From: Micrococcaceae bacterium
GTDB lineage: Bacteria; Actinomycetota; Actinomycetes; Actinomycetales; Micrococcaceae
Assembly (NCBI GenBank): GCA_013393415.1
Contig: JABXHI010000033.1
Location: 62,001-126,000 of the forward strand
DNA length: 64,000 nt
Direction: 5' to 3'
Positions 30,463 through 53,306 of this stretch are shown piece by piece. The notes below the pieces were generated by a model, which was not told where the DNA came from, ran no database searches, and saw only the letters and a program-made list of their open reading frames with translations. How positions within the stretch are numbered: position 1 is the stretch's first letter; each line of letters begins with the position of its first letter. The translations under genes were made by a program, and so were the position numbers.

Positions 30463-30464
30463 TG

Positions 30465-31529
30465 TTATTCCTTTGCTAACCATGTGGTGAGTGTGACCCG
30501 GTCGGGTTTCCCATTGTCTAACATGGGCAACGTGTCGAGTCGCAACCACATTTTGGGTACCGCCGGGGCGCCAAGCGTTGTGCGCACCGCATTCTCCAGG
30601 ACATCTTGTGGCGTATCACCGGTGATCACAGCGCTGATACGTTGGCCCCATTCGGCATCGGGCACCCCGGTGACAAACGCCGTCGGCACGTGCTGCTGAA
30701 GCACACCTTGTACTTGTGCCGCGGAGACCTTGATCCCGCCGGTATTGATGACATCATCCAACCTGCCAGCAACTCGGACCACCTCGTCGACCGAACCGTA
30801 GTCATCGGTGAGAAATGAGCCATCAATAAAATGTGCGGCGGTGAGGTCTGGATCGTCAAAGTAGCCTGCCGCCACCATCGGGCCGGTAATGCGAAGACGA
30901 TCGACCCCGTTGTGCGCCACGGTGTCGACGGTGACCCCGGGCAGGGGAGTGCCGTTGTAAACGCACCCCCCGCAGGTTTCTGACATCCCGTAGGTTTTGA
31001 ACAGCTTGAGATCATAGTTGGCTGCCGCTTGGGTAATGTGTTCGGGGATTGCGGAGCCGCCAACCAGTATTGCCGAATAGGACTGCAGCGCTGCTATGGC
31101 GTCATCGTCGGTCAAGAGTCGGGTGAGCTGGGTCGGGACAAAAGACACCGCAGTGAACTCGTGATCCAGGCGACCCGTTGCTGCAATAAATTCTGCGGCG
31201 CTGAAACCGGGATCAATGACTTCCGGCGTGGTACCGGCGTGGACCGATCGGGAGACCACGGCAAGACCTGCGACGTATTGGGTGTCGACGGCGAGCAACC
31301 ATTGGCCTTGGCCACCGATGCGCTGGGCGGTGGCCTCAGCTGATGCTCTGAGCGCGGTAGCGGTGAGCAGGGTCTGTTTTGGTGTGCCAGTCGAGCCGGA
31401 GGTTCGTACCACTGCGACGGCGTCGGGGTGGCCGCCACGATGGGGATCGGTGAGCTCGGGGCGGTGGATGATGCCCTGTGCCGTTGCTTCAAACGGTGTG
31501 CCGGTGGCGAGTGCTTGGGAAACGTCCAT
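30465..31529 (-). CDS. menE: o-Succinylbenzoate-CoA ligase
   Basis: A 354-aa acyl-CoA ligase of the ANL superfamily, short as in other actinobacterial MenE. Visible motifs are the P-loop VRTSGSTGTPKQTLLT, the YGMSETCGG adenylate-binding motif, and the hinge region AGRLDDVINTGGIKVS. It turns o-succinylbenzoate into its CoA thioester using ATP. The start overlaps the menB stop by one base (TGATG), and menA follows at once. Confidence 0.92.
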   Translation of the reverse strand: MDVSQALATGTPFEATAQGIIHRPELTDPHRGGHPDAVAVVRTSGSTGTPKQTLLTATALRASAEATAQRIGGQGQWLLAVDTQYVAGLAVVSRSVHAGTTPEVIDPGFSAAEFIAATGRLDHEFTAVSFVPTQLTRLLTDDDAIAALQSYSAILVGGSAIPEHITQAAANYDLKLFKTYGMSETCGGCVYNGTPLPGVTVDTVAHNGVDRLRITGPMVAAGYFDDPDLTAAHFIDGSFLTDDYGSVDEVVRVAGRLDDVINTGGIKVSAAQVQGVLQQHVPTAFVTGVPDAEWGQRISAVITGDTPQDVLENAVRTTLGAPAVPKMWLRLDTLPMLDNGKPDRVTLTTWLAKE

Positions 31530-32482
31530 CAGAAGTAGTACGGGAAGTCTGCCCAGTCTGGGTCGCGCTTTTCGAGGAATGCGTCGCGACCTTCGACGGC
31601 TTCATCAGTCATATAGCCCATTCGGGTGGCTTCACCGGCAAAGACTTGCTGGCCCGCCATGCCATCATCGGCGAGGTTGAATGCATATTTGAGCATCCGG
31701 ATGGCCTGTGGTGATTGGCCGTTAATATCTGCCGCGTATTCCAAAGCCACGTTTTCGAGGGTTTCGTGGTCGACCGATTCGTTGATCGCCCCCATCTCCA
31801 ACATGTCATCGGCCGAGTATTCACGGGCAGTGAAGAATATTTCGCGGGCCCGCTTCTGTCCGACGTGACGCGCCAACAATGCAGAGCCATAGCCGGCGTC
31901 GAAGGAACCAACGGTGGCGTCGGTTTGTTTGAACTTCCCATGTTGTTTGGAGGCCAGCGTCAGGTCTGCGACGACGTGCAGTGAGTGGCCGCCGCCCGCT
32001 GCCCAGCCGTTGACCACGGCGATGACAACTTTGGGGAGGGTTCGCATGAGGCGCTGGACTTCCAGAATGTGGAGACGGCCTGCGCGTGCCGGGTCGACAG
32101 ATTCTGCGGTGTCACCTTCGGCGTACCGGTAGCCGTCACGGCCACGAATGCGTTGGTCGCCGCCGGAACAAAACGAGTGGCCTCCGTCTTTGGGCGATGG
32201 GCCATTGCCGGTGAGTAACACGGTTCCGACATCTGAGGTCATGCGCGCGTGATCGATCGCGCGGTAGAGCTCGTCGACGGTTGACGGGCGGAAAGCATTG
32301 CGCACTTCGGGCCGGTCAAAGGCGATGCGCACGGTGCCGAGGTCGCGGACCCAGTTACCATCGCTGTCACGCTCGACATGGCGGTGATAGGTAATGTCTT
32401 GAAAATCGAAGCCTTGGACCTCTCGCCACGTGGGTGCATCGAAGATATCGGAAACTTTTTCTGGAACAGGATAGTTACTCAC
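31529..32482 (-). CDS. menB: 1,4-dihydroxy-2-naphthoyl-CoA synthase
   Basis: A 317-aa crotonase-family enzyme that closes the naphthoquinone ring. Family signatures include FRPSTVDELYRAIDHARMT, CSGGDQRIRGRDGY, AAGGGHSLHVVADL and DAGYGSALLARHVGQKRARE; it ends DPDWADFPYYF. The GTG at 32482 is chosen because TAGACT ends exactly 7 nt upstream, indicating a leaderless mRNA; an upstream ATG at 32503 would place the promoter inside the gene. It is the first gene of menB-E-A and divergent from the phosphatase across 19 nt. Confidence 0.93.
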   Translation of the reverse strand: MSNYPVPEKVSDIFDAPTWREVQGFDFQDITYHRHVERDSDGNWVRDLGTVRIAFDRPEVRNAFRPSTVDELYRAIDHARMTSDVGTVLLTGNGPSPKDGGHSFCSGGDQRIRGRDGYRYAEGDTAESVDPARAGRLHILEVQRLMRTLPKVVIAVVNGWAAGGGHSLHVVADLTLASKQHGKFKQTDATVGSFDAGYGSALLARHVGQKRAREIFFTAREYSADDMLEMGAINESVDHETLENVALEYAADINGQSPQAIRMLKYAFNLADDGMAGQQVFAGEATRMGYMTDEAVEGRDAFLEKRDPDWADFPYYF

Positions 32483-32488
32483 ATCGCC

Positions 32489-32495
32489 TAGTCTA
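32489..32495. promoter_or_regulatory. Shared bidirectional -10 heptamer TAGTCTA
   Basis: On + it reads TAGTCT, ending 7 nt before the phosphatase ATG (32502). On - it reads TAGACT, ending 7 nt before the menB GTG (32482). The 19-nt interval holds no Shine-Dalgarno. One symmetric box appears to start two leaderless mRNAs. Confidence 0.55.
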
Positions 32496-32501
32496 TACAA
32501 C

Positions 32502-33209
32502 ATGGTCTCTTCTACAGTTCAGTATCTTCATCCTGCAGATTGGTCCGGGGCACGTAATGCGTGGCAGGTCAGAGACGGCTTGTGGCGTATGGGTCGTGCC
32601 GAGTGGGTTGACTCCACTGGATGGCGTCAAATGGTCAATGACGGTGTGAGTACAGTGATCGATGTTCGTACCCCGCCGGAGATCAAACGCCGCGAGCTAG
32701 ATCCCGAAGCTGAGGTGCCCGACGAGGTTCGTCAGATTCATGTTCCGGTGGAAGATGTCGATCACGAGCCGTTCTGGGAACGCAACGCACCATATCCTAT
32801 GCACCCAGATGCCTATCACGACACCCTAGCGACCTTCGGTGACCGGGTTGCCGCCGCGGTCTCGACCCTTGTGGACTCTTGGGAAGCCGGAGGAACAGTA
32901 CTGCACTGTACTGCCGGCCGTGATCGCACGAGCCTGATCATGGGACTGGCTTTGCAACTGCCAAATATTCCGGGTGGTGCTGCAGACTGGGAAGAACACA
33001 AACGCGTCTACGCATCGGGTGCCTACGGGATTAATGAGCACCACCGGACATCGCCAATCCCGCATCCGTACGAGTCGTATCTGGAACCCGAAGCTTTTGA
33101 CCGCGAACTGGCAGACCGTCTCGCCAGCTATCGAACATTCCTCAAAGAGTGGCCCGGAGAGCGCGTCCAAGAGCTCTTGGAATGTAGAGCTCAGACGGAA
33201 AAGGCATAG
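32502..33209 (+). CDS. Tyrosine/dual-specificity-type phosphatase
   Basis: A 235-aa protein with the Cys-x5-Arg phosphatase loop HCTAGRDRTSLIMG (Cys near residue 128). This is the Y_phosphatase3 type, which in other bacteria acts on phosphotyrosine or phosphoinositides. A conserved IDVRTPPEIKRRE segment lies near residue 55. The target is unknown. No Shine-Dalgarno is present and the ATG lies 7 nt after TAGTCT, so translation is probably leaderless. Its 3' end overlaps the converging 187-aa hypothetical gene by 19 nt. Confidence 0.82.
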   Translation: MVSSTVQYLHPADWSGARNAWQVRDGLWRMGRAEWVDSTGWRQMVNDGVSTVIDVRTPPEIKRRELDPEAEVPDEVRQIHVPVEDVDHEPFWERNAPYPMHPDAYHDTLATFGDRVAAAVSTLVDSWEAGGTVLHCTAGRDRTSLIMGLALQLPNIPGGAADWEEHKRVYASGAYGINEHHRTSPIPHPYESYLEPEAFDRELADRLASYRTFLKEWPGERVQELLECRAQTEKA

Positions 33210-33754
33210 TGGCGTCCGGTGATGCCATCGACAATCACTTCAGTCGACCCGCTGGCCTCCCGGTTGGTGACCCACCAGTTGGGTTTACCGACACGGATTG
33301 GTGACTCCACCAACTCGAGGTCATCGATGGGAGTCATTCTGCGGCGGCGTAGTACGACCCCGGCCAGCAGTGCGTGAGCGGCGCGCACTGCAGTCGCTTC
33401 TGTCACATGCGGCTCGGGATCTGTAATCGTGCTCGTCTCATCGCGGTGTCCGATGGAAACAAACTCGTGTGGATCCCACGCATCGCTGAGATACGCTCTG
33501 CCGCCGACGAGGTCAACGAGCACATGCGCTCGGACGAGCTCTGTTGGTTGGAGTCTTGTACCCGCGCGAGGAAAGAAGCTCGGCCGCTGACTTTGGCCTT
33601 GGAACACCAACCCGAGAAAGGGATGGTGATACAACGTGGCCGTGAGATCAGCAGGTTCTTTCAGCCGGCGATTTACCAACGCTCGCGCTTCGTGATCCGA
33701 GAACTTCACCGGCCAGGCGAACTCGGGCTGAAGTTGTACTAGTTCAGCTGTCAC
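33191..33754 (-). CDS. Hypothetical protein coupled to a symporter gene
   Basis: A 187-aa soluble protein without signal or membrane segments and with no domain I recognise. Beta-rich and Arg/Pro-rich stretches (TATLYHHPFLGLVFQGQ, NWWVTNREASGSTEVIVDG) recall a peptidase-propeptide-like or small-molecule-binding fold, but this is weak. It starts with GTG that overlaps the symporter stop (GTGA), so it must be made with the symporter. A role in handling or sensing the transported solute is an inference from context only. Confidence 0.6.
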   Translation of the reverse strand: MTAELVQLQPEFAWPVKFSDHEARALVNRRLKEPADLTATLYHHPFLGLVFQGQSQRPSFFPRAGTRLQPTELVRAHVLVDLVGGRAYLSDAWDPHEFVSIGHRDETSTITDPEPHVTEATAVRAAHALLAGVVLRRRRMTPIDDLELVESPIRVGKPNWWVTNREASGSTEVIVDGITGRHYAFSV

Positions 33755-35298
33755 TCTTCTTCCTTTTCACGAGGGCGCTGGGTGGCTAATGTCGTATCCT
33801 CACCGGCGACCATGCGAGCGGGGACTGGAGCCACCCTTGCGGTCTCTTCCACCGCTTGTCGAACATGTTCGGGCACGGGGTTGGAGCGCTGTGTGAGCAG
33901 CGAGGCTACGATCATGGTGATCGTGGAACACGTGATGCCAATGACCATCGGGTCAAATCCAATCCCATCGGTTGAGCCGGACAACTCTGAGATGACGGAG
34001 GCTAACGTCCCGACGATCATCGAGCTAATGGCGCCCACCGTATTGGCTTTCCTCCACCAGACTGCGCAAATATACGCTGGAACGAAAGCGGAGCCGAGCA
34101 CTGATGTAGCAAAGACCACGATGTCGAAGACACCCGGGGGCTCTGCGATCGCGAGCACCACGGCGATCACCGCCAGCAGCAGAATCGTCAGACGCGAGAC
34201 ATTCACTGAGGCGCGTTCACTCATTGAACGCCCAAAAAATCGCGCCCACAGGTCCTGAGATGCAATCGTGCCGGCTTGCAACAGCAACGCATCGGCGGTC
34301 GACATGATCGCACCCATAATCGCTGCCATCACGATACCAACGGCAAATGTAGGCAGCACCGTGTCAGCAACTTCAAAAATTGCTAGTTCGGGATTGTCGA
34401 GGCCTGGGACAATGAGTATGCCCATCATTCCGACGATATAGGCGCCAGGAATAAAGAGCAGATTAAAGATGGTCGCATACAGCCCTGCCTGGCGAGCCAC
34501 CGATGGGCGGCGCATCGCCATGTGGCTGACGTTGACGTGCGGCCAACCGATGTAGCCAATCGAAAAGACTAACAACGCCCCGATGATGATGCCCCACTGA
34601 CCATAGTACTGGCCTTCGGAACCCCACATCGTCAGCAGGTTCTCATTGACGGTGGCTAATGCTTGGTTTGCCTGAGTGAGGCCGCCCACGTACTGCAGGC
34701 TGGCGATCAAGATCCAGAGCATGCCGATAACCATGATGATGGCTTGGAAGAAATCTGTATAGGCAACGGCCAAGTAGCCGCCAAGGAACGTATAGCCGAC
34801 GATGATACCGACGGCGACAATCAGGGCCACGTTCACCGAGAGCCCCGTCACCATGGCTAGTCCCTGACCCCCGGCCAAAAACTGTGCCAACACGTAAAAG
34901 AACATACAGAACAGCGCGATGGGGGCTGCGACCAACCGAGTCCACCGGGACGGATACCGGTTTTCGAGATAGCCAATCGAGGTAATCGAGCCAAGCATTT
35001 GCGACAGCTTGCGCATGCGGCGGCCGATAATAGACAGGTTTAATACGCCACCACCGACGTCGCCCAAGGCGTACCACATGCTGTAGTACCCCTGCGTATA
35101 AGCCAGGGAACCAGCGCCGAGAAACATGTAACCGGACATCGAAGAGCTTTGTAGGCGCAAGGCCGTCACGGCTGGACCGAGGCTGCGATCGGCAAGCAGG
35201 AAGCCCTCTGAAGATTTTGTGCTACGGCGCATGGCCCAGACACCGATACCGAGCATCCCCGCGAAGTAAATGATGAGCAAGATGAGGTCGATATTCAT
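33751..35298 (-). CDS. Sodium:solute symporter family protein
   Basis: A 515-aa transporter with about 13 membrane helices. SSS-family features are GFLLADRSLGPAVTALRLQSSSMSGY after the first helix, the YLENRYPSRWTR loop, and AAIMGAIMSTADALLLQAG (sodium-site helix with Ser-Thr). The solute is unknown; overall it resembles proline/pantothenate-like members. The start at 35298 follows GGAGGA, and its ATG overlaps the stop of the 49-aa gene upstream (ATGA). A 187-aa gene overlaps its end. Confidence 0.88.
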   Translation of the reverse strand: MNIDLILLIIYFAGMLGIGVWAMRRSTKSSEGFLLADRSLGPAVTALRLQSSSMSGYMFLGAGSLAYTQGYYSMWYALGDVGGGVLNLSIIGRRMRKLSQMLGSITSIGYLENRYPSRWTRLVAAPIALFCMFFYVLAQFLAGGQGLAMVTGLSVNVALIVAVGIIVGYTFLGGYLAVAYTDFFQAIIMVIGMLWILIASLQYVGGLTQANQALATVNENLLTMWGSEGQYYGQWGIIIGALLVFSIGYIGWPHVNVSHMAMRRPSVARQAGLYATIFNLLFIPGAYIVGMMGILIVPGLDNPELAIFEVADTVLPTFAVGIVMAAIMGAIMSTADALLLQAGTIASQDLWARFFGRSMSERASVNVSRLTILLLAVIAVVLAIAEPPGVFDIVVFATSVLGSAFVPAYICAVWWRKANTVGAISSMIVGTLASVISELSGSTDGIGFDPMVIGITCSTITMIVASLLTQRSNPVPEHVRQAVEETARVAPVPARMVAGEDTTLATQRPREKEEE

Positions 35299-35444
35299 TG
35301 TGAGTCCTCCGTCTTGTGGTAGTCGACGTCCTCGACCGCCCAATTTCGAGAGATCACGTAGAAGACGCCCGTGTACACGACCCAGAACCCTAGAACGCCT
35401 AGGATAACGATCCACGTTGTTGCCGGAAGCGCAAACATATTCAT
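35295..35444 (-). CDS. Symporter small accessory membrane protein (49 aa)
   Basis: A 49-aa protein with one membrane helix (WIVILGVLGFWVVYTGVFYVI, about residues 11-31) and a short acidic cytosolic tail (NWAVEDVDYHKTEDSQ). Small proteins of this pattern precede SSS-type symporter genes in many bacteria and are thought to assist the transporter. Its TGA overlaps the symporter ATG (ATGA). GGAAAG lies upstream of the first ATG; a second ATG two codons in is possible. Confidence 0.75.
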   Translation of the reverse strand: MNMFALPATTWIVILGVLGFWVVYTGVFYVISRNWAVEDVDYHKTEDSQ

Positions 35445-35811
35445 CACTCAACTTTCCACATGAGAAGTTCTTGCCCAAGGATCAGAAAGATACCAAAGTG
35501 GAGCTTATAGCCCTAAGTGTTGCACATCACATCCCGAGGTGGCTAGGTTATGACGGCGTCCTTGATGCTTGTGATCGGGTGGCACAGCTGGGGATGACAG
35601 ACGTGACCGTAAAACGCTGGATCCACGGCTGGGACTTGCACTTCGGTGAAGGCGCTGAGGCTCGCACAGCACAATAGATTCGAGACGTCGTCCACGTCTG
35701 ATGCGAAAGTAAGACAACCTTCCGGTATGCCAAAACCACCTCCGCATAGAATCACTATTGGTTGAGGTATTGGGCGCTTATCCTGTCCTACCCCCTGGCT
35801 AGGCTGGTGGT
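35445..35811. other. Intergenic stretch (367 nt)
   Basis: It separates the symporter operon (leftward) from the DUF222-HNH gene (rightward). A + strand open frame (to 35677) encodes a plausible-looking tail (VKRWIHGWDLHFGE), but it has mixed codon use, no ribosome binding site and no known relative, so it is not called. A TAGGCT box for the HNH gene lies at 35800-35805. No hairpin or repeat stood out. Confidence 0.5.
35800..35805 (+). promoter_or_regulatory. -10 box TAGGCT, leaderless start
   Basis: TAGGCT, then GGTGGT, then the ATG at 35812 of the DUF222-HNH gene. Confidence 0.45.
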
Positions 35812-37200
35812 ATGACGTATGAAGCAGGTTCAGCAGTAGCAGACATCACGCAGGCTCGTGATGCGCTTGGGATGCTTGAGCTTGCCGAAACTGATGCGGA
35901 ATCGATTGATCGGTTGCAGGCGCTAGAAGAACTCAAGGCTGCCTGTGCTGCTGCGCAAGCTCGTGAAACCGCTGCGTTGCAGGCCCGCCGACGCCAAGCC
36001 GAAGCCGTTCGGGGTGTGCCCGCTGCGCGCCGGTGCAATGGTCTAGGTGCTGAGGTTGGATTGGCTCGTGGTGATTCACCCGCCAGGGGCGCGCGATATC
36101 TGCGTGTGGCCTGCGCCCTGGTGGAGGACCTGCCCAACACGATGCAAGCGTTGCAATCAGGTGGAATCCATGAGGAACATGCTCAGATTGTGGTCAAAGA
36201 AACCAGCTGGCTTGCCGCTGACCACCGTCGGCAGGTCGACGCTCTGATTGCTGATCGGTTAGGCACGCTTGGCCCACGCAAGCTGGCAACGGCGGTGCAA
36301 GGTTATGCCCAGGAGCTCGACCAGCTCACGGCAGTGGAGCAGCGTGAACGAGCCGAATCTGAGCGTCGAGTGTCCATGCGCCCGGCACCGGGCGGGATGG
36401 CGTATCTGTCGGCGCTGGTGCCCATGCAGCAAGCTGTCGGTATTTATGCTGGGTTGCGTCGTGATGCCACGAATATGGTGGGCACCGGTGAGACTGCTGA
36501 TCCGGCTGACCCCTCCGGGCAGCCTCGTACTCGGGACCAGATTATGGCTGATCTGCTGGTTCAGCGTCTGACGGGACAGGCCACTGCACGGGCTGTCCCG
36601 GCCGAGGTGCACGTGGTGATGACTGATGAGGCGTTATTTGGCGATGGGGACACGCCGGCATGGCTGATTGGCCATGGTCCGATTCCAGCTAGCACTGCGC
36701 TGCAATGGATTGCGGATCCTGAAGCAGAGATGTTCCTTCGTAGAGTGTTTACCCGGCCCAAAGAGCACCAGCTGGTGGGGTTGGAATCGCGCTCTCGAAG
36801 CTTTCCTCCGGGACTACGGCGTATGGTGGCGCTTCGAGATGACACATGCAGGACGCCGTATTGCGATGCTGCTATCCAAGATATCGATCACATTCTCGCG
36901 GTCAAAGACGGTGGTACCACCAGCTGGTCGAATGCTCAGGGGCTTTGCGGTGCTTGTAACCAGATCAAAGAAAATACCGGATGGCGACACGAGGCCACCG
37001 CCGACCAACTGACCGTCACCACTCCTACGGGTCATCGATATACGACGAACACAGCACCGATACGTACGGCCAAAGACCCACCTGACCCGGGCTCACGACC
37101 AGATGCCAGGCCACCGGAAAACAACCCGCCGCCAATCACCTTGTCGAGCTGCGCCATGATGCGCAACACGATCCAATACTCCATACGCGTTGCCGCCTAA
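35812..37200 (+). CDS. DUF222 / HNH endonuclease protein (13E12-like)
   Basis: A 462-aa protein. Residues 1-310 form the helical DUF222 domain (Ala/Gln/Arg-rich, with GSAVADITQARDALGMLEL). Residues about 335-395 form an HNH nuclease: LRRMVALRDDTCRTPYCD, then DIDHILAVKDGGTTSWSNAQGLC and CNQIK, giving two Cys pairs and the DxDHI catalytic segment. The tail is Pro-rich and ends with an odd Met/Arg-rich stretch. Such genes occur in many copies in actinobacteria; their biological role is not established. The start lies 6 nt after TAGGCT without a Shine-Dalgarno. Confidence 0.85.
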   Translation: MTYEAGSAVADITQARDALGMLELAETDAESIDRLQALEELKAACAAAQARETAALQARRRQAEAVRGVPAARRCNGLGAEVGLARGDSPARGARYLRVACALVEDLPNTMQALQSGGIHEEHAQIVVKETSWLAADHRRQVDALIADRLGTLGPRKLATAVQGYAQELDQLTAVEQRERAESERRVSMRPAPGGMAYLSALVPMQQAVGIYAGLRRDATNMVGTGETADPADPSGQPRTRDQIMADLLVQRLTGQATARAVPAEVHVVMTDEALFGDGDTPAWLIGHGPIPASTALQWIADPEAEMFLRRVFTRPKEHQLVGLESRSRSFPPGLRRMVALRDDTCRTPYCDAAIQDIDHILAVKDGGTTSWSNAQGLCGACNQIKENTGWRHEATADQLTVTTPTGHRYTTNTAPIRTAKDPPDPGSRPDARPPENNPPPITLSSCAMMRNTIQYSIRVAA

Positions 37201-37302
37201 GGCACGCGACCCTGTTTGCTTCAGTCTCAATGGAGTGGCTGCGCCGCAGAGGGTTAGTTTCACCGCCTACGTCTTTGTGGATGTAACCGGAGGCGCTGAC
37301 GC

Positions 37303-37340
37303 AAAAAGCCCCGCTCCAGAGCAAAGCTCCAGAACGGGGC
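37303..37340 (-). terminator. Rho-independent terminator after ddh
   Basis: On the - strand, GCCCCG (37340-37335) pairs with CGGGGC (37313-37308), with an inner GAGC/GCTC stem, and is followed by TTTTT. It lies 32 nt past the ddh stop. Confidence 0.75.
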
Positions 37341-37371
37341 CGAGATGAGGACACGAAGCCGTTCAATCCAT

Positions 37372-38334
37372 TTAGACGAGCCCGGTTTCCATCATCTCTT
37401 GGTGAGATTGTTGGCTGAGTAAATACGGTGGCACTTCCAGCACCGTATAGGCGCCGGAGTTGCCCTGTTGTTGCAAGCGTGCCGCGGCACGTCCGAATGC
37501 GACCATGGCAGCAGCGGTGAAGTTCGGGTTGGACTCGAGTTTCAAACTGAACTCTACGCTGGCGTTATGGCCTTGCAGTTCGCTGGTCGTAATGACATAG
37601 CCACCGTGTGGGGCGCCTTGGTGGTCGCGCTCAAACTCTTCGTCAGAGACAAAGTGCACCGTGGTGTCATATGGCTCGAAGTAGTCGGGCATCGTGACGA
37701 TCTCGTCGCGAATCCGATCCTGCTCAGACTCGTCGGCCACGATGTACACGATGCGTTCGTGCGAAGCCGTTTTCGATAAGCCCTGACCATTTCCAGCGCG
37801 GGCCTGATCGATCGCAGACTGTGCAGGGATCGTGTACTGCACACCGCGCTGTACACCCGAAACTTGCCGGACGGCGTCGGAATGACCTTGTGACAAGCCT
37901 TTACCCCAAAAGGTGTTCTGTACGGGGTCAGGGAACAAGGATAAGCCCAGCACACGGTTCATGGAGAACAGGCCCGGGTCCCAACCGGTTGAAATGACCG
38001 AAACGTTGTCATTGGCCCGAGCGACCTCGTCCATTTCGGCATAGTGGGTAGCAACTTTGGAATGGTTGTCGTAGGTATCGACCGTCGTGAAGTGCTCGGC
38101 GAAACCGGCGGCCTGTTCGGGGATGTCGGTGGCCGACCCGACGCACAAGAACAACACATCGATCTCATCCTTATACCTCGCGGCATCGGCGACCGGATAA
38201 ATAGCCGCATCGGTGTCGAGTGTGTCCCGGCGTGAAAAAATACCGAAAAGTTCAAAGTCATCGAAGGCGTTAATGAGGTGTTCCACGGCCTGCCCGAGGT
38301 TACCGTAGCCTACAATTGCCGCTTTTATGGTCAT
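37372..38334 (-). CDS. ddh: meso-Diaminopimelate dehydrogenase
   Basis: A 320-aa NADPH enzyme that makes meso-diaminopimelate from tetrahydrodipicolinate and ammonia in one step, serving lysine and peptidoglycan synthesis. The Rossmann motif is AAIVGYGNLGQAVEHL (4-19). Other family segments are LFLCVGSATDIPEQA, VSVISTGWDPGLFSMNR and FWGKGLSQGHSDAVRQV. GGAGA sits 5 nt before the ATG at 38334. It begins 8 nt after the oligopeptidase stop, so the two may be co-transcribed, and it ends in a strong terminator. Confidence 0.95.
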   Translation of the reverse strand: MTIKAAIVGYGNLGQAVEHLINAFDDFELFGIFSRRDTLDTDAAIYPVADAARYKDEIDVLFLCVGSATDIPEQAAGFAEHFTTVDTYDNHSKVATHYAEMDEVARANDNVSVISTGWDPGLFSMNRVLGLSLFPDPVQNTFWGKGLSQGHSDAVRQVSGVQRGVQYTIPAQSAIDQARAGNGQGLSKTASHERIVYIVADESEQDRIRDEIVTMPDYFEPYDTTVHFVSDEEFERDHQGAPHGGYVITTSELQGHNASVEFSLKLESNPNFTAAAMVAFGRAAARLQQQGNSGAYTVLEVPPYLLSQQSHQEMMETGLV

Positions 38335-38342
38335 ACGTTCTC

Positions 38343-40508
38343 CTATTGGTATATGGGGTCTTGGGCGTTGAGTGCGGTCAGGATGAAGGCGTAGTCCCAA
38401 GCACGGTCCTCCCATGCGCGGTACCGACCGGATGCGCCCCCATGGCCGCCCTCCATCTCGGTTTTCAACACGATCGGTGAGCCGCCTTCAGCAAGCGGAG
38501 TGCTCTGGTCCGACGTGACGGTTGCCCGCAGTTCTTGTACCCATTTTGCCGGTTCGACGTAGAGCACACGGGTATCGTGTAGCGACGTGACGGCTGCTAC
38601 TGCCGGATAGTTCGTGGCCGCCACGTTGTGGTACGGGGTGTACTCCAGCATGTAGTCGAAGACGGATTTCTCCTCGATGGGGTTGCCCCATTCTTCCCAC
38701 TCCAGTGCGGTTAACGGCAGATCAGGATCCAGAATAGAGGTCAGTGCATCGACAAAGGGCACCTGGGCAAGGCACACACGGTACAGTTCGGGCGCTAAAT
38801 TCAGCACACCGCCCATGAGCAGTCCTCCGGCGGAGCCGCCCATGGCTGCGATGCGATCGGGATGTACCCAACCGGAGGCCGCGACGAACCGGGTGGCGTC
38901 CACAAAATCGGTGAAGGAATTCTTTTTGGCGAGTTTCTTGCCATTCTCGTACCAAGCGCGGCCGAGTTCACCGCCACCGCGCACATGAGCGACGACGAAC
39001 ACCACACCGCGATCCAGCAGTGAGAGTCGTGACGGACCAAAACCTGGATCCATCGACGCTTCATAGGAGCCGTAACCGTGGATCAGCGCCGGGTTGTTGC
39101 CGTCCCATTCGATATCTTTATGCCGGATGACGGTCAGCGGGATGGCCACGCGTCGGTCGGTGGATTCGGCGGGCGCCCACCAGCGCTCCACCAGATACTG
39201 CTCGGGATCATAACCGGGCACTTCGGTGGCGCGGCGCAGGGTCGATGCGTTGGACACCGGATCGTAGTCCAGGATCTGTGCGGGCGTGATCCAGGAGGTG
39301 TAGGCCAAGCGGATGTAGGGGGAGTCGTAGTGTTGCCCCACCGGAAAGGCCGAGTACAGTTCTTCGGCGAACCCGGGTTCCACAGCGTCAGCTTGTGCCG
39401 CGGTGCCGAGCCCTTCTAACGGCACAACCCACATGCGCGGGGTTGTTTCAGCCCGGACCGCGGCGAACAGGTATTGACGCGTGACCCCCACGCCATCAAG
39501 TTTGACGGTCGGCGAGTGGGCGAACACGGTCTGCCAGGCTGCTCGGTTTCCGATGTCTCCAGCATCGACGATGGCGACTTCGTTATTAGGCAGCGCAGTG
39601 CCGTCGGCTGCACGATTATGCGTGATGAGGTATCGGTCGCCCACGGGCAGCACATCGTGCAGGGAACGCTCATCGCGGCTGATCAGCAGTTGCAGGGATG
39701 CTGCGGGGTCGGTGAGGTCCATGATGTGGGTTTCGGTGACTTCTGAGTTGCCCAGCTCGAACAACAGCTTGGTTTTGTCGGGGCTCAGTCCGAAACCGCT
39801 CCACATCTGCGGGTCGGCTTCCTCGTGCAGCAGGACATCATCGCTCACCGGTGTGCCGATCCGGTGCGATTTGAGCTTATACGGCCGCCAGGATGCATCG
39901 GGTTCCATATAGAACACGCGCTCACCCGCCGGGTCGAAGGCTACCCCGTAGGACAGTCCCGGAATTTCATCTGGCAGTTGTTCCCCGGTGGTCAGGTCAC
40001 GCAATCGCAGGGTGAAGCGCTCGTCGCCGGTCTCATCAACCAGATAGGCCAGCAGGGTGCCGTCGGGGGAGACGGTCATTGCACCCAGCGAGAAAAACGC
40101 GACTTTTTCGGCTTCGACGTTGCCATCCAACAGGACTTGTTCGCCTGCCAGCACGACGCCGGGTTGAATCTGGGGTGGCTCCCAGGAATCACCCTCGACG
40201 GGTACGCGGCAGTGCACTCCGTATTGGGCACCCTCGGACGTGCGGGTGAAATACCACCAGTCGTTGATGCGTGACGGTACCGACATGTCGGTTTCGACGG
40301 TGTGGGATTTGATTTCGGCAAAGATCGCATCGCGCAGTGGCTGCTGGTCGGCGGTCACCGTCTCGGTGTAGGCGTTTTCAGCCTCGAGGTGCGCAATGGT
40401 GTTGGGATCTTGTGGGTCTTTGAGCCAGTCCCAGGAATCGACGAGGTCAACGCCGTGATAGGTGGCGGTGACGGGTTTTCGGGTGGCTTGTGGAGGGGTA
40501 GAAGTCAT
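38343..40508 (-). CDS. ptrB: Oligopeptidase B (S9 family)
   Basis: A 721-aa serine oligopeptidase that cuts short peptides after basic residues. An N-terminal beta-propeller (about 70-420) is followed by an alpha/beta-hydrolase domain with the nucleophile in GGSAGGLLMGG and the catalytic His in MEGGHGGASGR. RGGGELGRAWYENGKKL is a family hallmark. The ATG at 40508 lies 7 nt after TATAGT on the - strand; the nearby GGAG is too close to act as a ribosome site, so a leaderless mRNA is likely. The promoter overlaps the end of the NCS2 permease gene. Confidence 0.93.
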   Translation of the reverse strand: MTSTPPQATRKPVTATYHGVDLVDSWDWLKDPQDPNTIAHLEAENAYTETVTADQQPLRDAIFAEIKSHTVETDMSVPSRINDWWYFTRTSEGAQYGVHCRVPVEGDSWEPPQIQPGVVLAGEQVLLDGNVEAEKVAFFSLGAMTVSPDGTLLAYLVDETGDERFTLRLRDLTTGEQLPDEIPGLSYGVAFDPAGERVFYMEPDASWRPYKLKSHRIGTPVSDDVLLHEEADPQMWSGFGLSPDKTKLLFELGNSEVTETHIMDLTDPAASLQLLISRDERSLHDVLPVGDRYLITHNRAADGTALPNNEVAIVDAGDIGNRAAWQTVFAHSPTVKLDGVGVTRQYLFAAVRAETTPRMWVVPLEGLGTAAQADAVEPGFAEELYSAFPVGQHYDSPYIRLAYTSWITPAQILDYDPVSNASTLRRATEVPGYDPEQYLVERWWAPAESTDRRVAIPLTVIRHKDIEWDGNNPALIHGYGSYEASMDPGFGPSRLSLLDRGVVFVVAHVRGGGELGRAWYENGKKLAKKNSFTDFVDATRFVAASGWVHPDRIAAMGGSAGGLLMGGVLNLAPELYRVCLAQVPFVDALTSILDPDLPLTALEWEEWGNPIEEKSVFDYMLEYTPYHNVAATNYPAVAAVTSLHDTRVLYVEPAKWVQELRATVTSDQSTPLAEGGSPIVLKTEMEGGHGGASGRYRAWEDRAWDYAFILTALNAQDPIYQ

Positions 40509-40515
40509 GGACTCC

Positions 40516-40521
40516 ACTATA
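40516..40521 (-). promoter_or_regulatory. -10 box TATAGT for oligopeptidase B
   Basis: TATAGT on the - strand, then GGAGTCC, then ATG 40508. The box covers the last codons of the upstream permease gene, giving the peptidase its own start within a same-strand pair. Confidence 0.45.
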
Positions 40522-41998
40522 GGGATGAGATGCCGAGCATGTCTTGGAATACGCCCATCCCGAAATACAACACGAACGACGCGGCGACAACCCACAGTAG
40601 CGGGTGGACTTCACGTGCTCGTCCCTGGCCGGTTCTAATGAGTGCGTAGGCGATCATGCCCGCACCAATACCGTTGGCAATTGAATAGGTGAATGGCATC
40701 AGGGCGAAGGTCAAAAACGCCGGCAGGGCGGCACCCATATCGGTCCAGTCAATTTGCCCGACCTGGGAAACCATCATGAACCCGACGACGACGAGCGCCG
40801 GAGCGACCGCTTCGAAGGGCACCAGGTAAATGAGCGGGGTCAAGAACATCGCGGCCAAGAACAGGATACCGGTGACGATGGACGCGAAACCGGTGCGGGC
40901 GCCTTCGCCGATACCGGTGCCGGATTCCACGAAAATTTGTGTTGACGACGCTGAACCGGCACCACCAGCGCTGACGCCGATGGCATCGACGAGCAGAACG
41001 CGGTTAAGGTTCGGGATGGCGCCGGACTTCTGATCGACGTTGCCGGCCTCGCGGGCCAGCCCTACCGAGGTGCCCATCGCGTCGAAGAAAACCGACAGCA
41101 GGATGACGAAGACCAACAGTGAGGCAGCAACGGACCCGATCGAGGTGAAGGCACCGAATGAGAAATTGCCCAGCAGGCTCAGATCCGGAACCGACCACTC
41201 GGGCATCGACGGGGCGACGAGGCTCCAGCCTTCTGGATGTACGTTGCCCGCGTCATCGACCGAGGGGCCGATGTTGAACACGGCTTCCAACACATTCGCC
41301 AGGATGGTGGCTCCGACGATGCCGATGAGGATTGCGCCCGGCACATTGCGAGCAACCAGGATCGCGGTCAGGAAGAACCCGATAACAAAGACCAGGATGG
41401 GCCAGCCGGAGAGCTCCCCGTTGATACCCAGACCCACAGGCACGGTGGTGTCGGCTGAATCGGGGAGGCGACGGACGAATCCGGCGTTGACCAGTCCGAT
41501 CAGGGTGATGAACAGGCCGATGCCCACGACGATTCCGGTTTTGATGCTGTCGGGGACTGCCCGGAAGACCGCCTCACGGAAGCCAGTGAGCACCAGCACG
41601 ACCATCACCAAACCAGCGATGACCACCAGCCCCATGGCTTCGGGCCAGGTGAGGTCAGGCGTGGTGGCAATCGTGATGGCTAACAGAGCATTGACGCCCA
41701 AGCCCGCGGCTAGTCCGAAGGGGTGGTTGGCCCACAGGCCCATCAAAAAGGTGATGACGGCACCCAGGAGTGCGGTCGATGCTGCCACCGCGGAGATACC
41801 CAGGGTGTTCCCTGCGGCATCGGGACCAGACAGCACTAGCGGGTTGAGCACGATGATGTAGCTCATGGCCAAGAAGGTGGCGATGCCACCACGAATCTCG
41901 GCTCCCAGGGTCGAACCACGTCGGGTGATCTTGAAGAATTTGTCGAGCTTATTCTTGGGTTCGAGATCCAGGTGATTCACGGTGCGCAACGAAGACAT
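40517..41998 (-). CDS. NCS2-family purine permease (AzgA-like)
   Basis: A 493-aa membrane protein with about 13 helices, of the adenine/guanine/hypoxanthine permease branch. Signatures are RGGIATFLAMSYIIVLNPLVLSGPD at the N-terminus, GLAAGLGVNALLAI, and DAIGVSAGGAGSASSTQIFVESG in the transport core. It probably takes up a purine base with protons. TAGGAT ends 6 nt before ATG with no Shine-Dalgarno. The next gene (ptrB) begins 9 nt upstream of its end coordinate on the same strand. Confidence 0.9.
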   Translation of the reverse strand: MSSLRTVNHLDLEPKNKLDKFFKITRRGSTLGAEIRGGIATFLAMSYIIVLNPLVLSGPDAAGNTLGISAVAASTALLGAVITFLMGLWANHPFGLAAGLGVNALLAITIATTPDLTWPEAMGLVVIAGLVMVVLVLTGFREAVFRAVPDSIKTGIVVGIGLFITLIGLVNAGFVRRLPDSADTTVPVGLGINGELSGWPILVFVIGFFLTAILVARNVPGAILIGIVGATILANVLEAVFNIGPSVDDAGNVHPEGWSLVAPSMPEWSVPDLSLLGNFSFGAFTSIGSVAASLLVFVILLSVFFDAMGTSVGLAREAGNVDQKSGAIPNLNRVLLVDAIGVSAGGAGSASSTQIFVESGTGIGEGARTGFASIVTGILFLAAMFLTPLIYLVPFEAVAPALVVVGFMMVSQVGQIDWTDMGAALPAFLTFALMPFTYSIANGIGAGMIAYALIRTGQGRAREVHPLLWVVAASFVLYFGMGVFQDMLGISSL

Positions 41999-42004
41999 GG
42001 GAAT

Positions 42005-42010
42005 ATCCTA
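42005..42010 (-). promoter_or_regulatory. -10 box TAGGAT, leaderless start
   Basis: TAGGAT on the - strand, then ATTCCC, then the ATG of the NCS2 permease (41998). Confidence 0.45.
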
Positions 42011-42031
42011 GAACGAAATTTCCCTGAGAGG

Positions 42032-43009
42032 TTAACGAAGACCCACCGGCTCAGGGTCGAGCGCTTCCCGGCCGGCCTCCCAGCGGAAGAAGCTGGCCAG
42101 CAGTGCAAAGATCAGTGATGCCGAACCGGCGATGAGCAGTGCCCCGAAAATGAACCAGCGTGGTGATGGTCCAAAGCCTTCCAGGGTGGTGGGGAGCCCG
42201 TCGAAGCCACCGGAGAGGATAAAGACGGCAATGGCTCCGCCCAGTGCGACAATGCCCAGCAACCACAGCGTGATTTCTGCCATGCCGGCGTGTTGAGCTC
42301 GTGAGTGCGGGGAAACCACGTTCCAATCCGAGGAAAGGCGATAGATGATGAACCCGCCGATCAGCGTCCACATGGCGACCACGAGGTAGGCGGCCACAAT
42401 ATCCGAGGGGCGATGCCAGCCGTCTAAAAAGGTTGCCACGCCCACCGTGGCTGAAAAAATCACGCCGATGAGCGCTACCGACGAACGCCAGCGCGGGGCG
42501 ACCAGCAAAAAGACTGCCGCAAACGCTGCGGTGGCGAAGGTGGCATGACCTGATGGCAACGAATTGCCGGTGTAATAGGGTACGCCGTTTGCTAGCTCTG
42601 GACGCTCGAGGATGACCTTGAGGACCTGGGTGGTGAAATTTGCCGCAGCAAACGTGAGCGCGACAATCAGTGACGCGGCCCAGCGGCGTCGCCACAGCGT
42701 CAAGACGAGGAAACCGACGGCGGCAATACTGGCAACCACGATGGGCAGGTCGGCCAGTAAACTCACGGACGCTTCATGCAGCGTTTCCAGCCGCACTGTG
42801 GCCGAATCGAGTCCGGCCTGATCCAACACCTGACCGCGCGACGCGAGGACAAAAAATCTGTGAGTTGCCCAAATACCGGCGGCCATCGCGATGACGAAGA
42901 GCAGCCACGCCCAGATCCGTGATCCGGGCGCACGAATGACCCGACGCGCACGCCGGGTCGCCGGAAGGTTATCCTCTGGTAAGTGGTGAGCAGGAACGGG
43001 GTGCATCAT
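42032..43009 (-). CDS. PAP2-family membrane phosphatase
   Basis: A 325-aa protein with about eight helices. The three phosphatase motifs are KVILERPEL (K-x-x-x-x-RP-like), LPSGHAT, and ATFLDGWHRPSD with the His-Asp pair. Enzymes of this type remove phosphate from lipid carriers such as undecaprenyl diphosphate or phosphatidic acid at the outer membrane face. A basic N-terminal stretch of about 30 residues precedes the first helix. It is divergent from menC with only 19 nt between starts; TAGTCT ends 8 nt before its ATG. Confidence 0.88.
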   Translation of the reverse strand: MMHPVPAHHLPEDNLPATRRARRVIRAPGSRIWAWLLFVIAMAAGIWATHRFFVLASRGQVLDQAGLDSATVRLETLHEASVSLLADLPIVVASIAAVGFLVLTLWRRRWAASLIVALTFAAANFTTQVLKVILERPELANGVPYYTGNSLPSGHATFATAAFAAVFLLVAPRWRSSVALIGVIFSATVGVATFLDGWHRPSDIVAAYLVVAMWTLIGGFIIYRLSSDWNVVSPHSRAQHAGMAEITLWLLGIVALGGAIAVFILSGGFDGLPTTLEGFGPSPRWFIFGALLIAGSASLIFALLASFFRWEAGREALDPEPVGLR

Positions 43010-43016
43010 TGGGGCC

Positions 43017-43023
43017 TAGACTA
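43017..43023. promoter_or_regulatory. Shared bidirectional -10 heptamer TAGACTA
   Basis: On + TAGACT ends 6 nt before the menC ATG (43029). On - TAGTCT ends 8 nt before the PAP2 ATG (43009). The arrangement matches 32489-32495 at menB, again with no Shine-Dalgarno on either side. Confidence 0.55.
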
Positions 43024-43028
43024 ACTCC

Positions 43029-44039
43029 ATGGTCGCTAACTCACATATCTTACCGCTAGAGACTGATATTGCCCTGGGTGACCTTGCCGCACACGCGGTC
43101 GCTGTGGGCTTGCCGATGAACACCCCGTTCCGCAACACGACACTGCGTGAGGTCATGCTGCTCAAGGGCCCCGCCGGTTGGGCAGAGTTCTCCCCGTTTC
43201 CTGAATATGGCCCCGATGAAGCTGCCCGCTGGCTCTCGGCAACGATCGAGGCAGGTTGGTACGGCTGGCCTGAACAGGTTCGCGAGGTCGTCCCCGTCAA
43301 TGCGACGGTCCCAGCGGTAGCGCCAAACCAGGTCGAGACTGTCCTCGCACGGTTCGGACCTGTGAGTGCGGTCAAAGTCAAGGTCGCCGAGGACGATGTG
43401 GCCACCGATATCGCCCGCGTGACCCGTGTTCGTCGGCTCCTGCCCCACGCCGATATCCGGATCGATGCCAATGCGAAATACACACATGATGAAGCCTTCG
43501 ACGTGATTACCGCACTGCCGTTTCTCGAATATGCAGAACAGCCGGTACCCGGCATCGAGCCACTGGCCCAGCTTCGCGCGGCCTTACGCGATGCCGGTAG
43601 CGAGGTGCTGATCGCCGCTGATGAAGCGGTGCGCAAAGAAACCGATCCGCTGGCCGTCGCGCAAGCTCAGGCGGCAGATCTCATCGTCGTCAAGGTCCAA
43701 CCGCTAGGTGGGGTTCGTCGTGCACTATCGGTCGTCAAGCAAGCCGGCTTAGATGCCGTGGTCTCTTCCGCCCTGGACTCTTCGGTGGGTATTGCCGGTG
43801 GTGTTGCACTGGCTGCGGCATTGCCCCGTCTGAACCACGCATGCGGGTTGGCCACCGCAGCACTGTTTTCTGCTGAACCTGCGACTCCGGCCATTGCCAA
43901 CAACGGATACCTCACCCCGGGACCCGCCCCGGCACCGGATCCGCAGCTCATCGAGCAACTGAAACTGCCCCGTGATCGTCAACTGTGGTGGCAACAGCGT
44001 CTGGCAGAAACGCACAGTCAACTCACAGAGAAAGCGTAG
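43029..44039 (+). CDS. menC: o-Succinylbenzoate synthase
   Basis: A 336-aa enolase-superfamily enzyme that dehydrates SHCHC to o-succinylbenzoate. The catalytic Lys is in AVKVKVAE; metal ligands lie in IRIDANAKYT and EYAEQPV and in IAADEAVRK. The second Lys is in LIVVKVQPLGG. ATG lies 6 nt after TAGACT, so the transcript is probably leaderless. menD starts 2 nt after its stop. Confidence 0.92.
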   Translation: MVANSHILPLETDIALGDLAAHAVAVGLPMNTPFRNTTLREVMLLKGPAGWAEFSPFPEYGPDEAARWLSATIEAGWYGWPEQVREVVPVNATVPAVAPNQVETVLARFGPVSAVKVKVAEDDVATDIARVTRVRRLLPHADIRIDANAKYTHDEAFDVITALPFLEYAEQPVPGIEPLAQLRAALRDAGSEVLIAADEAVRKETDPLAVAQAQAADLIVVKVQPLGGVRRALSVVKQAGLDAVVSSALDSSVGIAGGVALAAALPRLNHACGLATAALFSAEPATPAIANNGYLTPGPAPAPDPQLIEQLKLPRDRQLWWQQRLAETHSQLTEKA

Positions 44040-44040
44040 G

Positions 44041-45816
44041 ATGGGACCCATGGATTCCATGGAAACCGCACGAGCCATCGTCACCGCACTGCGCGACGCC
44101 GGCGTCCGCCACGTCGTCATTGGACCCGGCTCACGATCAGCGCCTCTCGTCTACGCTCTGGCCGAGGCCGCCGACGTCACCAGACTGCGTCTTCATGTTC
44201 GCATCGATGAGCGATCCGCAGCGTTCACCGCACTTGGCATCTCGCTGGCATCGGGCCGGCCAGCAGCCGTGGTGACCACATCGGGCACTGCCACCGGCAA
44301 CCTCATGCCGGCCATGATGGAAGCATCCCACGCTGACGTGCGCCTGGTAGCCGTTACCGCCGACCGCCCGTCAGAAGTGCAATTCACCGGTGCTAACCAA
44401 ACCACCGATCAGCGAGAAATGTTTGGTGTCCATGCCCGATCGGCGATCACCGTCACCGGTGATATCGCAGACTATGCCAAAACCCATGCTTCGGTCATGG
44501 GCGCGCTCGCAGTCGGGGCAGGCACTGACACCTCACCAACCGGGCCGGTGCACATTAATGCTCGCTTCCGAGAGCCGCTCATCCCACAACCTGACGCACT
44601 TGAGGTGGTGCCAGATGCTGAAACCGGTGTGTTACCGGTCATCGAACCCTCGCAAGGCCAACCGCGATTCACCACGGATAAACGCTGGCACGACCGCGGA
44701 CGCTCCTTCCAAGAAGAACTCGTGGAAGCCACCGATTTGCGCGAACGCCACACGGTGGTCGTCGCCGGACACGGTGCCGGCCCCGCAGCCCACGACTTCG
44801 CGCTCGCACTGGGACTGCCACTGTTTGCTGAGCCGTCGTCGAATGCACGGTTTTCCCGCAACGCGATTGCCGCCTACCCGTATCTCCTAGGCCCTGACGG
44901 AGGGCTCGGCGAATCCGCGCACCGGCTGGGCAAACACATCCGTCGCATCGTGCTGTTCGGCCGCCCCACACTGTCCCGGCAACTCCAGGCATTGTTGAAA
45001 CGCGACGATGTGAAATCCGCGATGTATTATCCGGAACCGGTCGGTTGGTTTTCGCCGGGGGCACGCAAAGAACAACTCATCGCAGATCTGCAAGAGCTCG
45101 CCGAATTTGCCGGTAGTGGCCCACCCGGATGGTTGGGATCCTGGCAGTCTGCCGCCCAACGGGCCCAGCGTGCGCTCGAGCAAACACTGACCCAACGTCA
45201 AGAAACCACCGGCAAGCCAGGCGCCATGCGGACGGCGCAACTGGTCTCATCAACCGCGTTGGGACAGCTCGTGCTGGGCTCATCATCCGTGATTCGCGAT
45301 GTCGATTTGGCCTGGCGGCCACCCGCAGAACCCACCTCGACGGTCTTTGCTCACCGTGGGCTGGCAGGTATCGACGGTACGGTCTCGACGGCCACCGGTA
45401 TCAGTTTGGCGACGGGGGAGCGGACCACGCTGATGGTGGGAGACCTGACCTTCCTCTATGACACCAATGGATTACTGCTCGGGCCCATGGAACAGGAACC
45501 CCACCTTGACATCGTGGTGATCAATGACTCCGGGGGTGCGATCTTCCACGGACTGGAACACGGCGAAGTTGCCGAGCGGCCCGGCATGTCATCGGTGGTG
45601 GAACGGTTCTTCGGCACGCCACACACCGTCGATATCGGTGCGCTGTGTGCGGCCCACGGCATCAAACATGAACGTCTCACGTCAGAGCAACAACTCATTC
45701 ACGTGCTGGGTGATCCCGCGGAAGGACGCCGAGTGCTAGAAGTTGTCTCGGACAGGAGTCGACGCCCCGACGTACATGCCGCCGTCCAGGCTGCCGTTCG
45801 TGCCACGTTTGTCTAG
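44041..45816 (+). CDS. menD: SEPHCHC synthase (menaquinone MenD)
   Basis: A 591-aa thiamine-diphosphate enzyme that joins isochorismate and 2-oxoglutarate. The N-terminal domain opens ARAIVTALRDAGVRHVVIGPGSRSAPL and contains HVRIDERSAAFTALG with the catalytic-type Glu. The TPP-binding part has GDLTFLYDTNGLL and IVVINDSGGAIFHGLE. The ATG at 44041 lies one base after the menC stop codon; ATG 44050 is also possible. It forms an operon with menC. Confidence 0.93.
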   Translation: MGPMDSMETARAIVTALRDAGVRHVVIGPGSRSAPLVYALAEAADVTRLRLHVRIDERSAAFTALGISLASGRPAAVVTTSGTATGNLMPAMMEASHADVRLVAVTADRPSEVQFTGANQTTDQREMFGVHARSAITVTGDIADYAKTHASVMGALAVGAGTDTSPTGPVHINARFREPLIPQPDALEVVPDAETGVLPVIEPSQGQPRFTTDKRWHDRGRSFQEELVEATDLRERHTVVVAGHGAGPAAHDFALALGLPLFAEPSSNARFSRNAIAAYPYLLGPDGGLGESAHRLGKHIRRIVLFGRPTLSRQLQALLKRDDVKSAMYYPEPVGWFSPGARKEQLIADLQELAEFAGSGPPGWLGSWQSAAQRAQRALEQTLTQRQETTGKPGAMRTAQLVSSTALGQLVLGSSSVIRDVDLAWRPPAEPTSTVFAHRGLAGIDGTVSTATGISLATGERTTLMVGDLTFLYDTNGLLLGPMEQEPHLDIVVINDSGGAIFHGLEHGEVAERPGMSSVVERFFGTPHTVDIGALCAAHGIKHERLTSEQQLIHVLGDPAEGRRVLEVVSDRSRRPDVHAAVQAAVRATFV

Positions 45817-45861
45817 CGAATCTGCACAGCCACCCATATTCGCCCGAATCAGGAGGCCATA

Positions 45862-46731
45862 GTGCCATCATTACAGCATAGTGAGCACGCTCAAGACGCC
45901 TCGTCCTTGCCCCAGAGTGTACTGCTCGTAGGCTGCGGAAAAGTTGGTACACGCTTGGGTCAGCAGTTGGTTCAAACTGGCGCCGATGTTTTCGCCCTGC
46001 GTCGCGACACCGACTCGTTGCCTTCAACATTCACCACGCTTGCCATAGACCTGTTGGAACCGATTCAACAAACACTGCCGTATGTGGATGCCATGGTCAT
46101 CACGCTGACTCCCGGTATGCAAGATGCTGCGGGAAACAGTGGCTATCTCACGGCGCTACAGCATGTCGCCCAAGCGCTTTCGTCGATTCTACCCCGGGTC
46201 GTATTCGTCTCGTCGACACGCGTATTTGAGGGATATGCGGTGGATCATATTGTCACGGAAGATGATCCTCCGGCGCCAGGTAGCCAGCGAGGTGAAACGC
46301 TGGTCGAAGGTGAACAGCTCGCTACAGAACTGTTTGATGCCCATATCGTTCGTCCAGCTGGCATATACGGCCCGGGTAGACAGATACTGTTACGCAAAGT
46401 ACAGCAGCATGAGCCGGTGCAATACGCTCGGCGTACCAACCGTATTCATGAGACAGACTTGGTCAACGCACTGCACTACATGCTCACCGCGGATACTCCG
46501 CCTACCGTGCTGCATGCCGTGGATCAAGCCCCAGCAACTTTGCTGGGTGATATTGTGACGCATTTAGCTGATCGGCTCGGGGTCGAACCGCCACCCGCGA
46601 TTGAACCAGCTGAGACGAGTGGAAAAACCCTGAGCGGAGCATTGCTGACCAATCTGTTGGGCACACTGGAGTACCCGACATTTGTCGAAGGATACGACCA
46701 GATGCTGGAGCGCGTGACACATCTGGAGTAA
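45862..46731 (+). CDS. NAD-dependent epimerase/dehydratase-like protein
   Basis: A 289-aa extended short-chain dehydrogenase-like protein (YeeZ type). The dinucleotide motif is VLLVGCGKVGTRLGQQLV (19-36). The active-site region has VVFVSSTRVFEGYAVDHI in place of the usual Tyr-x-x-x-Lys, so catalysis is uncertain; VRPAGIYGPGR is the conserved sugar-nucleotide-side segment. An AGGAGG site lies 5 nt before the GTG start. It follows menD by 45 nt but has no evident link to menaquinone. Confidence 0.82.
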   Translation: MPSLQHSEHAQDASSLPQSVLLVGCGKVGTRLGQQLVQTGADVFALRRDTDSLPSTFTTLAIDLLEPIQQTLPYVDAMVITLTPGMQDAAGNSGYLTALQHVAQALSSILPRVVFVSSTRVFEGYAVDHIVTEDDPPAPGSQRGETLVEGEQLATELFDAHIVRPAGIYGPGRQILLRKVQQHEPVQYARRTNRIHETDLVNALHYMLTADTPPTVLHAVDQAPATLLGDIVTHLADRLGVEPPPAIEPAETSGKTLSGALLTNLLGTLEYPTFVEGYDQMLERVTHLE

Positions 46732-53293: not shown

Positions 53294-53300
53294 AGCCACT

Positions 53301-53306
53301 AGTCTA
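53301..53306 (-). promoter_or_regulatory. -10 box TAGACT, leaderless start
   Basis: TAGACT on the - strand, then AGTGGCT, then ATG 53293. The box is the same symmetric TAGnCTA type as at menB and menC, but no gene starts at the matching distance on the other side. Confidence 0.45.

Follow-up and report, generated by a model that had tools for sequence, protein, structure and literature searches.

In the 64,000-nt stretch of DNA analysed here (the window), a gene for a PAP2-superfamily phosphatase on the minus strand (42032-43009; PF01569, 48.4 bits, cut-off 27.2) and menC, encoding o-succinylbenzoate synthase, on the plus strand (43029-44039; NF002782, 370.6 bits, cut-off 288) diverge from a 19-nt intergenic gap (43010-43028). 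The menD ORF follows on the plus strand (43972-45816; TIGR00173, 344 bits, cut-off 244.2), and the codon-use score favours a later start for it, at 44041, over the ORF start at 43972. The gap contains the heptamer TAGACTA (43017-43023), whose sequence and conservation in the genus point to a symmetric -10 element belonging to neither strand alone. Read on the plus strand, its hexamer TAGACT (43017-43022) stands 6 nt before the menC ATG at 43029, a spacing that, with the leaderless -10 peak at 6-7 nt in the same genome, makes it the candidate -10 element of menC. Read on the minus strand, the hexamer TAGTCT (43023-43018) stands 8 nt before the first PAP2 ATG at 43009, behind which a second ATG directly follows; we take it as the candidate -10 element of PAP2 from this spacing, with the transcript start predicted from -10 geometry. 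The -7T and -11A of the two directions are reciprocally paired within TAGACTA, at positions 43018 and 43022. The start codons of menC and PAP2 lie 20 bp apart, and the transcript starts predicted from the geometry, 43011 and 43029, lie 18 bp apart. The menC transcript is thus predicted to begin at the A of its ATG (43029), and that of PAP2 at about 43011-43009, with a leader of 0-2 nt.

A second gap of the same kind separates menB, which is read from a GTG start on the minus strand (31529-32482; NF006186, 554.3 bits, cut-off 378) and is followed downstream by menE (30465-31529) and menA (29593-30549), from a plus-strand gene for a tyrosine-phosphatase-family protein (32502-33209; PF13350, 59.8 bits, cut-off 22.2). 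Here TAGTCTA (32489-32495) stands between the menB GTG (32482) and the phosphatase ATG (32502), and the -7T and -11A positions are again reciprocally paired, at 32490 and 32494. This gap measures 19 nt with the predicted GTG start, the longest ORF in the menB frame beginning at 32503. The first-pass annotation had put TAGACTA in a 19-nt gap at distances of 6 nt from the menC ATG and 8 nt from the PAP2 ATG, which is correct when counted from the two hexamers (the distances from the heptamer edges are 5 nt for menC and 7 nt for PAP2), and its statement that the same design occurs at two menaquinone operons in the window was verified by the menB site.

Other regulatory signals were also sought around the menC gap. 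Inspection of the 19-nt gap by eye revealed no AGGAGG-like run of at least 4 at 5-10 nt from either start, and no known RNA family scored at gathering level in 31000-46000. No sigma-70 promoter with -35 and -10 elements, and no terminator, was found in 42900-43150, the heptamer included, in a scan that also passes over TAGACT.

Leaderless -10 elements and the placement of TAGNCTA

The source genome is a 3.14-Mb draft (98.48% complete, 5.67% estimated contamination) in which genes were called with a simple codon-use script, the start codons of PAP2 and menB being predictions. In a sample of this genome, 36 of 431 genes had TANNNT at 6 or 7 nt upstream of their called start, against about 3 per position elsewhere, and TAGACT was the commonest hexamer at this spacing (8/36). 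The same peak at 6-7 nt was observed in samples of another genome (G004) and of five genomes from other genera. TANNNT is a general leaderless -10 element in this genome. Published work describes a TANNNT some 12 bp ahead of the start codon as the signal of leaderless genes in Actinobacteria (PMC3160421, PMC3898074), and the leaderless genes of Mycobacterium tuberculosis are described as having no conserved -35 element (PMC3898074). The menC site carries TANNNT within the range of about 5-8 nt before the start codon expected of a leaderless gene.

Heptamers are about as numerous in the window as expected: five TAGNCTA sites were counted for 3.03 expected, and 17 of 100 shuffled sequences reached five. 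What is over-represented is their placement. In 459 kb of the genome, 12 of the 58 sides of TAGNCTA had a called start at a distance of 4-9 nt, against 215 of 16,414 sides for the 63 other palindromic heptamers, and called starts flanked both sides in 3/29 cases against 1/8,207, one of the three (L093) depending on a TTG ORF without a coding-like score. Seven genomes contributed 160 divergent pairs in 1.26 Mb, and in three of these pairs, all from this genome, the two hexamers overlapped as one heptamer, each time TAGNCTA; 13 control hexamer classes yielded one case in total. A chance palindrome in a short gap would fit the unremarkable number of heptamers in the window, but this placement, together with the conservation described below, makes it extremely improbable. 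The argument of the first-pass annotation against chance, drawn from the recurrence of the design, thus gains support from the enriched placement.

The genome-wide scan that the annotation had proposed was carried out and took in every one of the genome's 150 TAGNCTA sites, the census being limited to this heptamer among the TANNNTA forms. When flanking starts were classed by codon-use score, 36 sites lay 4-9 nt from a coding-like start, of which 34 were one-sided and two were two-sided, menB/phosphatase and PAP2/menC; the remaining 114 had no such start. Coding-like starts were present on 38 of 300 sides, from which independent sides predict about 2.4 two-sided sites for the two observed, giving no sign of extra selection for two-sidedness.

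These counts also bear on whether the menaquinone operons are under common control through TAGNCTA, acting as an operator or as a special -10 element. In favour of such a role, both two-sided sites, which have no others beside them in the genome, lie at menB and menC, and TAGGCTA is found 7 nt upstream of the menG GTG; menG being a third menaquinone gene with TAGNCTA, a weak menaquinone link is conceivable. However, menG is the single menaquinone gene among the 34 one-sided genes, 26 of which match Pfam families unrelated to menaquinone, with 7 matching none. These genes include polA-like, panB, tgt, cdsA-like and moaE genes, as well as genes for a class II aminoacyl-tRNA synthetase and for TetR and MarR regulators. 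Two of the one-sided sites can be mentioned in their own right. Another TAGTCTA of the window (53300-53306) is separated by 6 nt from the ATG of a minus-strand ORF of 165 aa that matches no Pfam family. The polA-like gene carries a leaderless-type TAGNCTA here, and in another genus polA and a divergent thioesterase gene have a heptamer of this kind in common.

Conservation of the two men sites in the genus and the family

The nearest named relatives of this menC are those of Enteractinococcus coprophilus and E. helveticum (family Micrococcaceae), which suggests that the source genome belongs to the genus Enteractinococcus. At the menC gap, GCCTAGACT is invariant in 9/9 genus genomes, the TAGACT hexamer is present in 9/9, and the last A of the heptamer is kept in 8/9. 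The exception is E. helveticum, with TAGACTT (1489-1495 in L022; 9989-9995 in L005), in which the forward -10 element is intact and the reverse -12T is lost, indicating that a full reverse -10 element is not strictly required. Across the genus, 6-9 nt separate the PAP2 start from the heptamer, in gaps of 18-21 nt, so that PAP2 may have a short leader; the distance of 9 nt occurs in one genome (G007). All eight menB loci found in the genus retain the heptamer; the ninth genome, 71% complete, yielded no close menB. In these loci the phosphatase ATG is at a distance of 5 or 6 nt and the menB GTG at 6 nt. Most other bases of both gaps vary, while the heptamer is conserved. No motif beyond the 7-mer was found to be common to both men sites across the genus genomes. 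Two further features of the menC region were observed. The GCC directly before TAGACT (43014-43016), between the -10 element and the PAP2 start, is invariant in 9/9. Codons 8-10 of menC (43050-43058) read TTA CCG CTA in 7/9 genus genomes and CTA CCG CTA in 2/9; TTA and CTA look rare for the G+C content, an impression from uncounted codons.

The one-way promoter of menG offers a comparison for the seventh base. TAGRCT is kept there in 9/9 genus loci (L401-L409), followed by A in two, G in three and T in four. By contrast, where a divergent start abuts the heptamer, the seventh base is A in 8/9 (menC) and 8/8 (menB) loci; A is common at this position in leaderless -10 elements generally (20/63).

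To place the two promoters in the family, 30 menB and 30 menC loci were compared, two of each 30 coming from the genus. TANNNT stands 5-8 nt before an in-frame start in 30/30 loci for both genes, the next best of the 64 hexamer classes reaching 15 (menB) and 14 (menC). The hexamer itself differs: at menB it is TAGACT in 21/30 loci, and at menC most often TACAGT (8/30), followed by TAGACT (6/30). None of the 28 menB promoters from outside the genus has A as its seventh base, and at menC TANNNTA occurs in 3/28 such loci, none with a divergent start 4-9 nt away. Upstream, menC has a PAP2 homologue in 21/28 of these loci, and menB has the phosphatase gene in 3/28. The gaps between PAP2 and menC are mostly wider there, often some 40-200 nt as judged from candidate starts, with one candidate in L333 leaving 20 nt. 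Among 19 relatives (the 21 loci without L320, which was left out, and L322, which has no candidate start), no leaderless -10 element of PAP2's own was found at the candidate starts listed, up to eight per locus. The PAP2-menC pair thus appears to go back a long way in the family, where the gaps are wider and the -10 element would serve menC only, and the step taken in the genus would have been the closing of the gap to 18-21 nt together with the seventh base A, completing a reverse -10 element. In the family loci compared, menB and menC have a leaderless-type -10 element throughout, and outside the genus they have it without the shared arrangement, which suggests that the men promoters are old and that their two-way form is particular to the genus.

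These comparisons weigh on two other explanations. We reject a motif specific to menaquinone genes in view of the census, in which 26/34 one-sided genes belong to other families, and of the family comparison, in which TANNNTA is found at 0/28 menB and 3/28 menC promoters outside the genus. Since TANNNT is a general element, since most one-sided genes are not menaquinone genes and since the men hexamers differ outside the genus, the shared control of menB-E-A and menC-D hinted at by the first-pass annotation is not supported. The heptamer is not conserved at the men promoters of other genera, and menG has not kept it within this one; no common motif extends beyond it, and we consider a dedicated operator or -10 element for the menaquinone operons very unlikely.

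Alternatively, the heptamer could serve as a one-way -10 element for menC (and for menB), with the promoters of PAP2 and the phosphatase lying inside the partner gene or with their translation starting further in. The family-wide presence of the menC and menB -10 elements without a divergent ORF at leaderless distance, the loss of the reverse -12T in E. helveticum and the lack of a leaderless -10 element at the PAP2 candidate starts in the 19 relatives are all consistent with this possibility. It does not account, however, for the retention of the seventh base A beside divergent starts, in contrast to menG, nor for divergent starts at or near leaderless spacing at both genus sites. The result of the sigma-70 scan of 42900-43150 also argues against it, weakly given that TAGACT itself was missed. 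We regard a one-way element at these sites as unlikely, and a -10 heptamer shared by two divergent genes at leaderless spacing, the central proposal of the first-pass annotation, is supported by the geometry and the above-chance placement.

A probable compact promoter core for two divergent genes

Taken together, the sequence geometry of the heptamer, its placement far above chance, its conservation and the family-wide leaderless-type -10 element at menB and menC are established. We conclude that TAGACTA in the 19-nt gap is probably the promoter core of both divergent genes, whose messages would start at or next to their start codons; transcription in both directions, the 5' ends and competition are deduced from sequence. 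We see in this site a compact example of an established type of promoter, not a switch dedicated to menaquinone genes. The housekeeping RNA polymerase would read one -10 element in either orientation, the TA at each end, on opposite strands, providing the -12T, -11A and -7T for both directions. Transcription of menC would begin at the ATG itself and that of PAP2 within 2 nt of its ATG, while the menB and phosphatase transcripts would each begin 1 nt before the start codon or at it. With transcripts starting at or within about 2 nt of the start codon, the menC-D and PAP2 mRNAs would be leaderless or nearly so. If there are -35 contacts, they would be made within the partner gene. As the site has room for one polymerase at a time, menC and PAP2 would compete. 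The commonest distance between the divergent starts of bidirectional promoters is 18 bp, at which the -7T of each strand faces the -11A of the other (PMC10268837, PMC12825309), and in those of Escherichia coli competition is reported when one direction is activated and not at basal activity (PMC12825309).

To examine whether the arrangement recurs at other gene pairs, the heptamer was searched for at 6/6 spacing in 295 family genomes, which yielded 55 sites in 49 genomes (counted from listings); a 10/10 spacing yielded 15 sites in 13. A backward-pattern control for 6/6 gave about 60 matches, so that the raw 6/6 counts alone show nothing. This control was set aside, because it also reverses the start codons and its heptamer has a quite different frequency (813 occurrences in this genome against 150), and was replaced by the heptamer GATNATC and the 10/10 spacing. 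GATNATC at 6/6 is present in 279/295 genomes, and its listed matches give the impression of stretches within genes, so only the share of sites with ORFs on both sides was compared. ORFs of at least 150 aa flanked both sides in 15 of 30 loci examined among the 55 sites at 6/6, against 1 of 30 examined among the many GATNATC matches and 2/15 at 10/10. The 15 two-ORF loci represent five distinct gene pairs (one locus per pair was scanned): an MgsA/RarA-type ATPase with a VLRF1-type release factor, hisS with an AlkB-like oxygenase, polA with a thioesterase, a dihydrodipicolinate-synthase-family gene with an acyltransferase-like gene, and RDD with SpoIIM. Class-wide, 15 sites were found in 14/296 genomes, 5/15 with ORFs of at least 150 aa on both sides, one of these being menB itself. 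Related genomes are not independent, and these counts therefore indicate recurrence and not its rate.

The proposed core resembles the bidirectional promoters of Warman et al. 2021 (as presented in PMC12825309 and PMC10268837), with the same pseudo-symmetric -10 element, paired -7T and -11A and starts expected 18 bp apart. In contrast to those promoters, as they are presented there, both products are coding here, the core is TANNNTA instead of TATAAT-like, and the case is known from its sequence. Because the start codons here coincide with or adjoin the expected starts, the gap measures 19 nt in total. Hexamer class and spacing are those of leaderless actinobacterial genes (PMC3160421, PMC3898074), with the difference that one heptamer would serve two genes here. 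Likewise, prpD and Rv1129c are divergent genes with leaderless mRNAs, for which a figure legend in PMC3898074 does not state a common -10 element. The lysG/lysE pair of M. tuberculosis is a further likeness, with divergent, overlapping promoters and one leaderless transcript, but differs in its 108-bp intergenic region and LysR-type regulator site (PMC5648196). Among titles and abstract openings, with few subscription papers, we found no bacterial promoter described as common to two leaderless genes.

A broader proposal would be that this is the smallest divergent promoter, a 7-bp -10 element coupling a menaquinone operon and a membrane phosphatase in an either/or, regulator-free manner, in a layout that recurs in leaderless-rich bacteria as divergent genes close up and a single base completes the second promoter; we hold this to be rather unlikely as a whole. 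In its narrower form, the finding unites two known features, symmetric -10 elements and leaderless mRNAs, within 19 nt. Such an element is recognisable by its sequence alone and occurs at further gene pairs. The finding also corrects a tempting but unsupported reading of menaquinone-specific control. Natural variants exist in the seventh-base T of E. helveticum and in relatives with one-way promoters and wider gaps. These variants may be useful for understanding how a one-way promoter turns into a two-way promoter, and whether competition for a single -10 element couples the two genes.
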